Shown one piece after another: positions 18,992 to 33,016 of a DNA stretch of 38,754 nt. The translations under genes were made by a program, and so were the position numbers. Every line of letters starts with the position of its first letter. The first letter of the stretch is position 1. Source of the DNA: Spirochaetota bacterium. Lineage in GTDB: Bacteria; Spirochaetota; UBA12135; COTS27; JAFLEE01. The stretch spans positions 1 to 38,754 of the forward strand of contig JAFLEE010000051.1 in the NCBI GenBank assembly GCA_017302015.1, written 5' to 3'. The notes beneath the pieces are model-generated. The model was not told where the DNA came from. It searched no databases and saw only the letters and a program-made list of their open reading frames with translations.

Positions 18992-19354
18992 CTACGGTTC
19001 GGCGAGATTGAGGATAAGGCGGCGGATGCGGGCGGCGGGTACCTGACCGGGCGGGGAAAATTCCCAACCTACGCGGTAGCGCCCCCGTTCCGGGACCTCG
19101 TCGCTCCAGCGGCAGCGGGCCGTCACCCGGAGTTCGCCGGTCTGGGCCGAGTCTTCGATGACCAGGTGGGCGTCGCTCCCCGAGGGGATGGGCGCCGAAA
19201 CGAAGAGCATGAGCCCGTCGGTGCTGATGTCGGCGAGGCGTCCGGCGACCGACCGGTCGCCTTCGATTCGCACCAGCACGCCTTCGGCGGCGGGGGACCG
19301 GACATGTCGGCGCTTGTCGGACGGGGGGCGCGGCGCGGTCGTGTGGGGGGCCAT
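18992..19354 (-). CDS. PilZ-domain protein (c-di-GMP effector)
   Basis: A 120-aa stand-alone PilZ domain. The two c-di-GMP contacts are present: an Arg-x-x-x-Arg in KRRHVRSP and Asp-x-Ser-x-x-Gly in DISTDGLML. Strands after these (AHLVIED, LRVTARCRWSDE, YRVGWEFSPPG) complete the barrel. Such proteins change partner activity on binding c-di-GMP, often in motility or surface polysaccharide control. A GGDEF-EAL enzyme at 30350 and a flagellar-switch-like gene at 20996 give it plausible partners within the window. No Shine-Dalgarno sequence is seen; a TAAACT box six bases before the ATG points to a leaderless message. The partner is unknown. Confidence 0.88.
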   Translation of the reverse strand: MAPHTTAPRPPSDKRRHVRSPAAEGVLVRIEGDRSVAGRLADISTDGLMLFVSAPIPSGSDAHLVIEDSAQTGELRVTARCRWSDEVPERGRYRVGWEFSPPGQVPAARIRRLILNLAEP

Positions 19355-20879: not shown

Positions 20880-20899
20880 CTGTGTGCGCCCGCTCACAG
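20880..20899. promoter_or_regulatory. Inverted repeat CTGTG-N10-CACAG, possible operator
   Basis: A perfect five-base inverted repeat (20880-20884 and 20895-20899) lies in the 192-bp gap between the divergent oxidoreductase and switch-like genes. It resembles a Crp/FNR half-site pair (TGTG ... CACA), but the spacing is two bases longer than the E. coli CRP site. A Crp/FNR gene is the second gene downstream, so autoregulation is conceivable. In the same gap CCCGCC-GTGC-GGCGGG (20960-20975) forms a hairpin just before the switch-like gene's RBS. Confidence 0.3.
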
Positions 20900-20995
20900 A
20901 GGCGTTTCATGGTGCCGCCTCGTTTTCGGGCCGAAACTATGGTCAGATTCGAACCGGATCCCGCCGTGCGGCGGGCGGGTCGACGAGGAGGTCCC

Positions 20996-22186
20996 ATGGG
21001 ACTCATGAAGGAACCCGCCACCCTTTCCCTGGTGGCCGGAAAAAGTTGGCTCTCGCTCTGGGAGGCGACGCATTTGGCCGTCGGGGATGTGGTGCGCAGT
21101 TCCACCATTTGCGGGAGGCCCCATGCGCTCACGCTCAACGACCGCTACCTCTGCGCGGCCGAAACCGTGGTTCTAAACGAGCGTTTTGGGGTGCGCCTGT
21201 GCGGGTTCGGCGCCGAGGCGGTGGCGCCCGACCGGCCGGCGGTGGACGACGTTCTTGACCTCCTCCCCGTCGAATTGCGCCTTCCCCCCTGCCGTTCCTA
21301 TTGCCTGGCCGACCTCGATGGCTTGGTTCCCGGCTCGATCGTGGAGTTGTCGGCCCCCTACCGGGAGGATGAAGACGGGGAACTCGTGGTGGCCGGCATG
21401 GTGGTGGCCGCGGGGAAATTCGTGGTGGTCGGGGAGACCTTCGGCCTGCGGATCACCCGTCTCCACGCGGTCGAGGCGACGGAGGCCCCGGTGCGCGTGT
21501 CGTTCAACCGCCTCGAGGGCCCCGCGCTCCCGGCCATGAAGATCAAGGACTACAATTGGAAGCGCCCGGACAAGTTCTCCCGGGAGGCGGTCATGCGCCT
21601 GGGCCGCATCCACGAACTCTTCCTCGAGAACGCGCCCTTCTACCACCCCGCGTTCGCCGGTTGGAAGGTGGGAACCGTCGACCAATGCACGTTCTCCGAG
21701 GAGGCGGAGCGTTTGGCCGCGTGCGACCGCATCGGGGTGGTCAAGGTATCGGGGATGCATCGCGAACGGCGCGTTCGTCCGGAATCGGCGCGGCCGGCCA
21801 AATGGTTCCTCAAACCCGCGGACTCCCCGAATCCTCCGCTGCCCAAAGCGTTCGTCGACTATGTCGAGGGAAAATCGCCCTTCCCTGGGAACCTCGAGTC
21901 CGACGCTCTGCTCGTGGCGGCACGATCCACCCTGGCCGTGGCCTCGTCGATCAGCACGGAGGCGCCGGATCGCCTGCTGGCGCCCCTGCGCAACGGATGG
22001 AAGAACATCAGCGCGGCGGACTTCCGCCTCGATCGCGTCGAAACGGCGGCCTCGAAGGCGAAGATCGTGCCCGACAACGACATGATCATCTCGGTAACCC
22101 TGGAGGGGCCGGGCGGCGGAGACGAGCGGATGCTCCTGCTCTACCCCTACATTATGCTCGAGCCGTTCCTGCCGTACCTGGACTGA
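20996..22186 (+). CDS. Tandem SpoA domains fused ahead of a FliM-like domain (permuted switch protein)
   Basis: A 396-aa protein starting at ATG 20996 behind a strong GAGGAGG. Residues about 8-72 and 88-157 each fit a SpoA (FliN/FliM C-terminal) domain: a VGDVV or VPGSIVEL entry, a central strand pair, and a closing NERFGVRL or GETFGLRITRL. Residues 182-212 (IKDYNWKRPDKF, then RLGRIHELFLEN) match the start of the FliM middle domain. VGTVDQCTFSEE (225-236), the GWKNI ... VETAASKAKIVPDNDMII stretch and LLYPYIMLEPFLPYL at the end match later FliM-M blocks. The usual FliM order is middle domain then SpoA; here it is reversed and no SpoA follows. The CheY-binding N-terminal peptide and the Gly-rich FliM-M loop are missing. 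Likely a flagellar or export-type C-ring component or a regulator derived from one; the role is inferred. Confidence 0.8.
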   Translation: MGLMKEPATLSLVAGKSWLSLWEATHLAVGDVVRSSTICGRPHALTLNDRYLCAAETVVLNERFGVRLCGFGAEAVAPDRPAVDDVLDLLPVELRLPPCRSYCLADLDGLVPGSIVELSAPYREDEDGELVVAGMVVAAGKFVVVGETFGLRITRLHAVEATEAPVRVSFNRLEGPALPAMKIKDYNWKRPDKFSREAVMRLGRIHELFLENAPFYHPAFAGWKVGTVDQCTFSEEAERLAACDRIGVVKVSGMHRERRVRPESARPAKWFLKPADSPNPPLPKAFVDYVEGKSPFPGNLESDALLVAARSTLAVASSISTEAPDRLLAPLRNGWKNISAADFRLDRVETAASKAKIVPDNDMIISVTLEGPGGGDERMLLLYPYIMLEPFLPYLD

Positions 22187-22221: not shown

Positions 22222-22890
22222 ATGGAAATGTTCCCATCCCATTTGGGCGGCCTGGAGGAGCGCACCCGAACCCTCTTGGAACGCTCGGGTACGGAGCTCT
22301 GCCATGCCCGCGAACGCACCGTGTGCTGGCAGGGCGATCCCGTGACGCACGTCTACCTCGTCAGGTCGGGCCGGGCGCGGCTGGTGAAGCACCGAAGCGA
22401 TGGTTCTTCGATGCTTCTGGGCTGGGTCGAAGCGGGGGGGTGGATCGCCCTCCCCGAAGCCATGGCCGGGGTATCCCATCTCTGCGATGTCGAAGCGGAA
22501 GCGGCGTGCCACCTGTTCTCCCTCGCGGTGCCCGCGCTCCAACGCATCGCCGCGAGGCCCGATTTTTCATCCTGGCTCCAGCGGGAATTGGCGCTTGCGG
22601 CGTGCCGCCTCCATGGGCATTTGGAAGCGAAGACCCCCCAGGAAAAAATCCGCCAATTCCTGGCCCTCCGCGGCGGGAGCGCGGCATCGGGGCCCGGGGG
22701 CCGTGACGCCCTCGTCTCGATCGAAATCACCCAGGACCAACTCGCCCAGGCTGTGGGGTTCACCCGCGAGACCGTCAACCGGACCCTCAAAGATCTGGAG
22801 GACGCCGCCGTGCTCCGGTGGGAACGGGGGCGCATCGAGGTGAACCTCGCCCGCCTCAAGGGCGACCCGATGCTTTTCCCCACCAAATGA
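22222..22890 (+). CDS. Crp/FNR-family transcriptional regulator
   Basis: A 222-aa regulator. The N-terminal part is a cyclic-nucleotide-binding-type barrel (VCWQGDPVTHVYLVRSGRARL, then a WIALPEAM segment), followed by a long dimer helix and a C-terminal winged helix with ITQDQLAQAVGFTRETVNRTL as the DNA-recognition pair, very like CRP. No four-Cys cluster for FNR-type iron-sulfur binding is seen; the cAMP phosphate-binding Arg-Ser pair is not obvious, so the ligand is unknown. ATG 22222 is my choice; the start is uncertain because the only purine-rich stretch (GGAAGG, 22203-22208) is 13 bases away and ATG 22228 is also possible. It lies 35 bp after the switch-like gene, probably co-transcribed. 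Confidence 0.9.
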   Translation: MEMFPSHLGGLEERTRTLLERSGTELCHARERTVCWQGDPVTHVYLVRSGRARLVKHRSDGSSMLLGWVEAGGWIALPEAMAGVSHLCDVEAEAACHLFSLAVPALQRIAARPDFSSWLQRELALAACRLHGHLEAKTPQEKIRQFLALRGGSAASGPGGRDALVSIEITQDQLAQAVGFTRETVNRTLKDLEDAAVLRWERGRIEVNLARLKGDPMLFPTK

Positions 22891-30349: not shown

Positions 30350-33016
30350 ATGATTCGAGCCACGCCGCCTCCCACGCCAGGACCCCAAACCCCTTGGTGG
30401 AGCCCGCCCCGATTCCCCGGGAACCATGAGATGGAATTGCGGGCGCGGATCCTCGCCGGCATCCTCCTGGCCTTCGTCGTCGGGCTCTTCCTCTACGGGC
30501 TGGCGACGTTCACCTTGACCCCCGCGGAGCGCCCGAGCCGGCTCCTTTACGTCAGCGCGTTCCTAGTCGCCTTCGGTTTTTGTTGGATCGCGATCAAGCG
30601 CAAACGCCTCGATCTTGCGGGCTTCCTCATCCTGGGGATCCTTTGGGTGCTCATCAGCCTGTCGATCCTCCAGGGTGGCGGTCTCATGAGCCCGGCCGTG
30701 CCCGGCTACCTCATCATCAACATGACCGCGGCGCTCCTGTTCGGCTACCGTGGGGCGATGATCTGCGCGGGCCTCCTCATCCTCTCCCTCGCTTCCCTCT
30801 ATTTTTTCCCGGGATGGACCATCCAGCCCGTCCAGCGGAACCTGGGGCACGTCGCCTATAACGGCCGCATCGAGGTGGCCGCGATGTCGACCTTCCTCGT
30901 GATCACTTCCGCCCTGGTCGGGAACGTGGTCATGACGATGAACCGCGCGCGGCGCCAGGCGACCAACGCCCTGGAGGACCGCCTCGCCTACCACCAGGCC
31001 CTCGTGCGCCACCGGTCCCATCTCGACCTGACCCTGCAGGCCACCCGCACGGGCAGTTGGGAGTGGAACCTGGAGACCGGGCGGGTCGTCTGGGCCCAGA
31101 ACACCGAGTCGCTCTTCGGCCTGGAGCGCGGAGCCTTCCGGGGCACCCTCGAGGCGTGGCTCGAATTGGCCTTGCCCGAGGACCGCCTCCCCATCGAGAA
31201 GGCCTTCGGCTCGGTCGTCGACAATAGCGCCCGGTCGTTCACCCTGGAGCACCGCGCCATGCTCCCCAATGGGGAAATCCGGTGGTTCGAACTCCGCGCC
31301 AACGCGGCGGTCGACCGCTCGGGGCGCAACGAGGTGCTGCGCGGGGTGGTGATGGACGTCAGCGAACGCAAGCGGAAGGTCGAGGAATTGCGCGAGAGCG
31401 AGGCCCGCTTCCGCGCCATGGCCGACGCGGCCTACGAGGGCGTGGTCATCCACGAGATGGGCACCGTGGTGGAGGTGAACCCCGCCCTCACCCGCATGTT
31501 CGGCTACGCGCGCGAGGAGATCCTCGGCCACAACGTCTTCGACGAGATTGTGGTTTCCGACGACCGCGACGTCCTGCGCCGCCATGCGGCCCAGGGGAGC
31601 GGCGAGACCCTCGAGGTCCGCGCGCGCCACAAAGACGGGCGGATCCTCACGGTCGAGACCCGGGGCTCCGCGATCCTCTTCCAGGGGCGCGCCGCCCGCG
31701 CCGCGGTGCTGCGCGACGTGACCGACCTGCGCGAGTCGGTGGCGCGCCTGGAACACCTGGCCTACCACGATTCCCTCACCGGCCTGCCCAACCGCAAGAT
31801 GCTCCAGGCCCGGGTGCAGGGGCTGGGGGCGCTGCTCGAGCGCGGGCGGCGCGCGGGTCTCCTCGTCATCGATCTCGACGGGTTCAAGGAGATCAACGAC
31901 ACCCTGGGCCACGCCGTGGGCGACCAGGTGCTGCGCGAACTCTCCCAGCGGTTGGCGAAGTGGCGGGACCCCGCGGGGGCCCTGGTGTGCCGCCTGGGCG
32001 GCGACGAGTTCGCCGTCTACCTCGAGGGGACCTTCGACGAGCGCCGGCTGCGCGAGATCGGCGAAGAACTCCTGGAGCGGCTGCGCGAGCCCATCTCACA
32101 CGGGGAAGCGCGCCTGGTGGTGGGGGCCGGCATCGGCATCGCCATGGCCCCGGAGCACGGGGCCGAGCTCTCCCCGCTCCTGCGCCACGCCGACGTGGCC
32201 ATGCACGCCTCCAAGCACCGCGGCGCGGTGACGCTCTACCATCCCGACCTCGACCACCATACCCCGCGGCGCCTCGCCCTGCTCTCCGATTTGGCCTCGG
32301 CGATCCGCGACCGCAGCCTCGTCCTCCATTACCAGCCGAAGGTTCGCCTCTCCGACGGCGACCTGGGCGCCTACGAGGCGTTGGCCCGGTGGAAGCATCC
32401 GGAGTACGGCTGGGTTTCCCCGGTCGAGTTCATCCCCCTGGCCGAGATCGGGAACCTCATGAAGGCCCTCACCCTCTCGGTCCTCGACCAGGCGCTGGCG
32501 CAGGTGTCCGCCTGGCTGCGCGGCGGGCGCCGCGTGAGCGTCTCGGTGAACATCTCCCCGCGGAACCTCCTCGACCCCTCCTTCCCGGAGCAGGTGGGAT
32601 CGCTCCTTGGAAAATGGGCCGTCCCCGTGGAACTCCTGGAATTGGAGCTCACCGAGGGGGCGTTCATGGTCGAGCCGGAGCAATGCCTCGCCTGCCTCGA
32701 ACGCCTGCGCCTAGCCGGCGTGCGCCTGACCATCGATGATTTCGGCGTCGGTTTTTCCTCGCTCAGTTACCTCACCCGCCTGCCGGTGTCCGCCCTGAAG
32801 ATCGACCTCTCGTTCGTCAGCCGCATGCTCACCGGCGAACGAGAGCACGCGGTGGTCGCCTCGACCATCCACCTCGCCCACGACCTCGGCCTGCACGTGA
32901 TCGCCGAGGGCGTCGAGAACGAAGAAACGGCGGCGGCCCTGCGCGCGCTCGGATGCGACGAAGCCCAGGGCTGGCTATTCGGGAGGCCGGCCCCGGTGGG
33001 GGACGCGGCGACGTGA
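30350..33016 (+). CDS. Membrane-bound GGDEF-EAL protein with two PAS domains
   Basis: An 888-aa c-di-GMP enzyme. Hydrophobic segments between about residues 30 and 195 (for example ILAGILLAFVVGLFLYGL, GFLILGILWVLISLSIL, LIINMTAALLFGY, STFLVITSALVGNVV) form a membrane sensor. Two PAS domains follow (about 225-335, ending in DVSERKRK, and 345-465, ending in LRDVTDLRE). The cyclase site GGDEF (550-554) is intact; the RxxD inhibitory site upstream is absent. The phosphodiesterase domain has EAL (676-678), NISPRNLLD, LELTEG, DDFGVGFSSLSYL, AEGVENEE and QGWLFG, so it should also be active. Net activity cannot be predicted. ATG 30350 is used, with a TAGGAT box nine bases upstream; ATG 30431 is an alternative. 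Converges with the chemoreceptor gene, three bases between stops. Confidence 0.93.
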   Translation: MIRATPPPTPGPQTPWWSPPRFPGNHEMELRARILAGILLAFVVGLFLYGLATFTLTPAERPSRLLYVSAFLVAFGFCWIAIKRKRLDLAGFLILGILWVLISLSILQGGGLMSPAVPGYLIINMTAALLFGYRGAMICAGLLILSLASLYFFPGWTIQPVQRNLGHVAYNGRIEVAAMSTFLVITSALVGNVVMTMNRARRQATNALEDRLAYHQALVRHRSHLDLTLQATRTGSWEWNLETGRVVWAQNTESLFGLERGAFRGTLEAWLELALPEDRLPIEKAFGSVVDNSARSFTLEHRAMLPNGEIRWFELRANAAVDRSGRNEVLRGVVMDVSERKRKVEELRESEARFRAMADAAYEGVVIHEMGTVVEVNPALTRMFGYAREEILGHNVFDEIVVSDDRDVLRRHAAQGSGETLEVRARHKDGRILTVETRGSAILFQGRAARAAVLRDVTDLRESVARLEHLAYHDSLTGLPNRKMLQARVQGLGALLERGRRAGLLVIDLDGFKEINDTLGHAVGDQVLRELSQRLAKWRDPAGALVCRLGGDEFAVYLEGTFDERRLREIGEELLERLREPISHGEARLVVGAGIGIAMAPEHGAELSPLLRHADVAMHASKHRGAVTLYHPDLDHHTPRRLALLSDLASAIRDRSLVLHYQPKVRLSDGDLGAYEALARWKHPEYGWVSPVEFIPLAEIGNLMKALTLSVLDQALAQVSAWLRGGRRVSVSVNISPRNLLDPSFPEQVGSLLGKWAVPVELLELELTEGAFMVEPEQCLACLERLRLAGVRLTIDDFGVGFSSLSYLTRLPVSALKIDLSFVSRMLTGEREHAVVASTIHLAHDLGLHVIAEGVENEETAAALRALGCDEAQGWLFGRPAPVGDAAT

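Follow-up and report, generated by a model that had tools for sequence, protein, structure and literature searches.

A reversed SpoA-SpoA-FliM architecture encoded next to a Crp/FNR regulator gene in Spirochaetota

Results

Domain architecture of the protein

The DNA analyzed here is a stretch of 38 754 nucleotides from a Spirochaetota genome (hereafter, the window) that includes an uninterrupted open frame preceded, as initially annotated, by a strong ribosome-binding site, and followed in the same operon by a gene for a Crp/FNR-family regulator. The features of this locus are the following:

20883..20912, + strand: CRP-like operator, TGTGCGCCCGCTCACA-N7-TTCATGG, starting 113 bp before the ATG (shuffle test, leave-one-out matrix and genome-wide scan)
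20985..20991, + strand: ribosome-binding site GAGGAGG ahead of the ATG (read from the sequence)
20996..22186, + strand: SpoA-SpoA-FliM middle protein (P0001), 396 amino acids in one open frame
21008..21223, + strand: first SpoA domain, residues ~5-76 (30.9 bits against an independent FliN profile; Pfam; fold)
21245..21484, + strand: second SpoA domain, residues ~84-163 (34.1 bits against the independent FliN profile; Pfam; fold)
21539..22183, + strand: FliM-type middle domain, residues ~182-396 (Pfam, AlphaFold2 model, fold match and core residues)
22222..22890, + strand: Crp/FNR-family regulator, 222 amino acids, same operon, 35 bp gap (Pfam)

The product of the gene at 20996-22186 begins with two SpoA domains of the FliN-like type and ends with a FliM middle domain, behind which there is no further SpoA domain. 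This reversed order, originally noticed in the sequence of the window, is confirmed by the combination of Pfam searches, two AlphaFold models and fold matches in the PDB. The FliMN_C/SpoA profile matches two stretches in the early part of the protein above the Pfam cut-off (E = 6.9e-15), and positions 121-190 of the Pfam FliM profile match residues 325-393 (E = 3.7e-11, 43.7 bits versus the cut-off of 27). In the single-chain AlphaFold2 model of the window protein (pLDDT 74.3, pTM 0.70, with low confidence for residues 255-307), residues 6-163 match the FliM(SpoA)::FliN fusion structures 4yxb and 4yxc with Z of 13-14, and residues 190-396 match the FliM middle domain (Z 19.3, 149 residues, 2.4 A). 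The model of a homologue with 32% identity, from genome G162 (pLDDT 79.0, pTM 0.73), yields the same two parts, with Z of 14.3 for the SpoA pair and 19.5 for the FliM middle domain. The middle domain of the window protein retains Y-x-x-x-RPDKFS, VDQ, NDM and YPY, which, along with a W, are among the residues that the family has in common with FliM, and is missing the GGxG motif.

The scores against profiles of named families fall below the respective cut-offs: 47.2 versus 219.6 bits for TIGR01397 (the FliM equivalog; the best homologue scores 69.5), 54.7 versus the equivalog cut-off of 84.05 for TIGR02480 (FliN; two stretches, E = 7.2e-15), and 31.8 versus 100.8 bits for the NCBIfam SctQ model. 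None of the NCBIfam equivalog cut-offs for FliM, FliN, FliY and SctQ is reached by the window protein or any of its homologues, and therefore, the architecture lies outside every named family. A search of the open-licence literature found no paper on the reversed order or on a FliM-FliG fusion, in agreement with the original suggestion that this architecture had not been described.

Distribution across Spirochaetota

A first search of 60 relatives yielded two full-length homologues, and extended searches of 393 Spirochaetota genomes identified proteins with the same domain order in eight genomes from six families: G000 (the genome of the window), G017, G052, G073, G162, G332, G366 and G379. 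With up to four candidates per genome scored and the phylum sampled, at least eight of the 393 genomes carry the gene. Because the same order recurs in eight genomes and six families, it is neither a one-off nor the product of an assembly error or a frameshift fusion. The pairwise identity among the eight proteins is mostly 25-37%; their open frames span ~380-495 amino acids, and the fold and core residues are kept across the six families. No plasmid copies of the gene were found. A wider scan of contigs, an insensitive one that missed all the other known members, detected three relatives, all from Spirochaetes.

As a further check on the SpoA domains, the eight homologues and 400 shuffled sequences were searched with a FliN profile that had been derived from other proteins. 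The best 15 matches are all real SpoA domains, two in each of seven homologues; the first SpoA domain of the G332 protein is the only one outscored by the best of the 400 shuffles. The homologue from G366 (L061:10132-11619; 495 amino acids) contains low-complexity Ala/Asp/Pro and Ser/Thr/Ala/Lys repeats inserted within SpoA1 and within the FliM middle domain.

Lost docking motifs and the ordinary flagellar genes

In ordinary FliM, the N-terminal EIDxL peptide binds CheY-P and the GGxG motif binds FliG (PMC6700473). The peptide is present in 29 of 31 ordinary Spirochaetota FliMs and in none of the eight family members, and the docking motif (FGGxG) in 30 of 31 and, again, in none. The loss of the CheY-binding peptide and the Gly-rich loop, originally noted for the window protein, thus extends to the whole family, whose members, lacking both elements, are not ordinary switch subunits.

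An ordinary FliM is also encoded in all eight genomes. That of the window carries a complete, separate FliM/FliY pair (contig C92), a separate FliG (C95) and a FliM::FliG fusion (C10), as well as FliF-, FliH- and FliI-like genes elsewhere, the latter identified by eye. Given the separate FliM/FliY and FliG and the second, fused FliM::FliG, the window protein is a supplement rather than the FliM-FliN of the cell; the possibility that it forms the sole C-ring is ruled out by the canonical FliM in all eight genomes and by the FliY and FliG encoded elsewhere in that of the window. No flagellar genes were recognized adjacent to any of the eight homologues.

Of the neighbours that had been taken as a signalling context, the PilZ protein (18992-19354) and the PAS-GGDEF-EAL protein (30350-33016) are indeed encoded in the window, but no chemoreceptor was found among the part of the window genes that were scanned. 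The homologous loci share no neighbours besides Crp. A conserved motility or c-di-GMP neighbourhood was rejected since the PilZ and GGDEF-EAL genes do not occur near the homologues, so that their proximity in the window carries little weight.

The Crp/FNR partner and the upstream operator

The pairing with the Crp gene is conserved across the six families. In the window, the partner contains PF00027 (cNMP-binding type, 47.2 bits) and PF13545 (Crp HTH, 45.7 bits), and in seven of the eight genomes, a Crp/FNR regulator gene follows immediately downstream in the same orientation, with a gap of at most 35 bp where measured. A profile of the seven partner Crps, searched against 296 genomes at E<=1e-35, matches only four (G000, G017, G052 and G162), each time in a protein encoded next to the SpoA-SpoA-FliM gene. 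The recognition helix, TRETVN[RK] across the partner Crps and TRETVNR in that of the window, resembles RETVGR of CRP; the arginine-serine pair of the cAMP pocket is not seen in an alignment to CRP inspected by eye. In the remaining genome, G073 (L052:9679-11977), the SpoA-SpoA-FliM gene is the third one after genes for an ECF sigma factor and a putative anti-sigma protein with a weak zf-HC2 match, and there is no adjacent Crp.

A scan for FNR and CRP motifs, chosen after the Crp gene had been seen, gave no signal for an FNR-type operator; in the window, the shuffle P for the core of the CRP-like operator is 0.005. Five of the seven Crp-paired genomes have a CRP-like operator 84-114 bp ahead of the start codon, and a sixth case is borderline. 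The extended operator, with the consensus TGTGA-N6-TCACA-N7-TTCAYAG, was first spotted by eye and then subjected to a leave-one-out analysis, in which each site was scored with a matrix derived from the other genomes and ranked against all positions of its 13-39 kb locus, both strands included. The operator ranks first in its own locus in five of the eight genomes, namely, the window (38.7 kb), G017, G162, G379 and G366, is borderline in G052, and is absent in G332, where Crp is present, and in G073, where the gene lacks a Crp neighbour. Upstream of the G332 gene (L053:8135-10196), there is a TGTGA-N7-TCACG sequence, the spacing of which differs from that of the conserved operator. With up to two mismatches allowed, the extended operator is the sole genome-wide match in G000, G366 and G379, which points to the own operon as the main target of the regulator. 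We infer that the partner Crp binds the predicted operator and regulates its own expression.

A second C-ring cassette

Another unusual C-ring module is present in nine of the 393 Spirochaetota genomes, including that of the window. Its three genes code for a short SpoA-like protein, for FliN, and for FliM fused to the FliG middle and C-terminal domains, and it is found at the following locations:

L009:9050-12344 (contig C10 of G000): SpoA-FliN-FliM::FliG cassette
L067:9385-12562: SpoA-FliN-FliM::FliG cassette
L068:8686-11781: SpoA-FliN-FliM::FliG cassette
L100-L105: SpoA-FliN-FliM::FliG cassettes

The fusion protein comprises ~600 amino acids, and no FliG N-terminal domain is clearly recognizable in it. 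When compared by eye with E. coli FliG, the majority of the fusions seem to be devoid of the charged residues of the FliG torque helix. An AraC-family regulator adjoins the cassette in seven of the nine genomes (by Pfam in two and by reading of the translations in five); the other two contigs end before the AraC position.

Both modules occur in three of the eight SpoA-SpoA-FliM genomes, including that of the window, and the remaining five have no FliM::FliG fusion. The genes of the cassette, SpoA, SpoA, FliM, follow one another as the domains do in the window protein, which makes the origin of the latter by fusion of such operon genes attractive, but both its SpoA domains simply resemble FliN, and the FliM trees, because of long branches, do not settle the relation of the two modules. 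In these trees, the FliM part of the G000 fusion groups with the ordinary FliM of the same genome (100/98), and that of the G073 fusion with the FliMs of its own family. This split grouping, despite the common gene order and AraC, might reflect gene conversion or repeated fusion.

Discussion

A rearranged, one-piece copy of the switch proteins with a regulator of its own suggests either a component of the motor that is produced only when needed or a signalling device. The three proposals originally put forward for the window protein do not fare equally: the domain order, the motif losses and the Crp pairing hold but the protein is not the cell's own FliM-FliN, given the separate FliM/FliY; a permuted C-ring subunit is one reading, and re-use in signalling or as a conditionally expressed modifier fits the private regulator better.

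The combination of a tandem SpoA module with a dedicated regulator whose best operator is at its own operon is most simply read as a conditional modifier of the motor or of the export platform. We favour the view that the protein is a soluble mimic of the C-ring, produced conditionally under its private regulator, which binds or caps FliN, FliH or C-ring parts, and we give this view somewhat short of an even chance of being correct. The Crp/FNR protein encoded downstream would bind the operator ahead of the operon and set its expression in response to a signal. In the product, SpoA1 and SpoA2 would pair within the chain as the equivalent of the FliH-recruiting FliM(SpoA)-FliN heterodimer, the FliM middle domain being joined to the wrong end of this pair, and the protein would most likely stay soluble or join the edge of the C-ring. 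It would then bind the SpoA domains of FliN and FliM, or FliH, and cap, sequester or modify the genuine C-ring or the sorting platform for export, the outcome being a brake or a remodeller of the flagellar motor. In Salmonella, the tandem SpoA module binds a peptide of FliH and links the ATPase complex to the C-ring (PMC4443714), and cytoplasmic FliM/FliN units are known to exchange with those of the C-ring (PMC6700473). A soluble chain that carries such a module but makes no FliG and CheY contacts should, then, either cap the ring or be a competitor for FliN, FliM or FliH. Counting against the mimic are the absence of the gene from ~98% of the sampled Spirochaetota genomes, the lack of recognized flagellar genes beside the homologues, and the operator that is missing in G332 and borderline in G052.

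Alternatively, the C-ring fold could have been reused as the input of a transcription switch, whereby the protein would bind its partner regulator (Crp/FNR or, in G073, the putative anti-sigma factor) and either release or block it, according to whether the protein is itself bound to flagellar parts, and the state of the motor or the export gate would thus be reported to transcription. The C-ring-like part is constant and the regulator varies, with Crp in seven genomes and an ECF sigma factor plus putative anti-sigma in G073, and AraC adjoins the separate SpoA-FliN-FliM::FliG cassettes; the strict co-occurrence with one Crp subfamily fits as well, and precedents exist in the rotor-dependent two-component systems of polar flagellates (PMC7064773) and in FlhG, which bridges FliM/N and FlrA (PMC12826062). 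The occurrence of the extended operator only at the own operon in three genomes, however, gives little sign of a wider regulon, and the partner Crp keeps its ligand domain, as Crp proteins usually carry their own. We consider this switch, the main rival of the mimic, rather unlikely.

The protein could also be a one-chain equivalent of FliM-FliN, serving as a structural component of another type of C-ring that the cell assembles under certain conditions. The protein retains the FliM middle fold together with the core residues YDFxRPDKFS, VDQ, NDM and PY, and the fusion operon with the matching gene order is present in three of the eight genomes; nevertheless, the loss of GGxG in all eight proteins, the strong divergence of the family, the five genomes without the FliM::FliG fusion and the failure to recognize a companion FliG or FliF beside the gene make such a subunit improbable. 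Finally, a decaying duplicate of a switch gene hitchhiking with the regulator gene, with no present role, would account for the patchy distribution and the fast divergence, but is hardly credible for a family in which the open frames, fold and core residues, the regulator pairing and the operator are all conserved.

More generally, and quite tentatively, the C-ring proteins of Spirochaetota might have repeatedly become input or effector parts of small self-regulating transcription cassettes, with Crp, ECF sigma or AraC. If so, these cassettes would be regulatory modules of a new type, with a fold taken from the rotor switch either reporting on the motor or acting on it. In spirochaetes, the motors are located in the periplasm, and both the shape and the movement of the entire cell are driven by them; a switchable modifier would, therefore, be of general interest. 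In the proteins described here, the two defining contacts of a switch subunit are gone and a dedicated transcription factor has been acquired, which allows a clear test, namely, whether a C-ring mimic brakes, remodels or reads the motor.

Comparison with known systems

To our knowledge, in all C-ring proteins known so far, the SpoA domain or domains are located at the C-terminal end. The present family breaks this rule, yet, according to the predicted models, still folds. Its middle domain resembles that of FliM in fold (Z 19) and core residues; in FliM, however, a single SpoA domain lies behind the middle domain, whereas the window protein has two in front, and neither the CheY peptide nor GGxG. 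The tandem SpoA pair folds like the engineered FliM(SpoA)::FliN fusion (4YXB, 4YXC), a FliH-binding heterodimer, of which the window protein is a natural counterpart with a FliM middle domain behind the pair. SctQ/SpaO/YscQ, of the injectisome sorting platform, similarly combine two SpoA domains in one chain but the SctQ pair is C-terminal, whereas that of the window protein is N-terminal and is followed by a true FliM middle domain. The CheC-like fold of FliY and CheC is shared by the C-terminal domain of the window protein (Z ~14 and 12), which is nevertheless closer to the FliM middle domain (Z 19), with the order reversed and no CheC phosphatase motif detected by eye. Lastly, the SpoA-FliN-FliM::FliG-AraC cassette is likewise an extra C-ring module, in the order SpoA, SpoA, FliM middle, beside its own transcription factor, and differs in consisting of three genes, with the FliG middle and C-terminal domains fused to FliM and with AraC in place of Crp.
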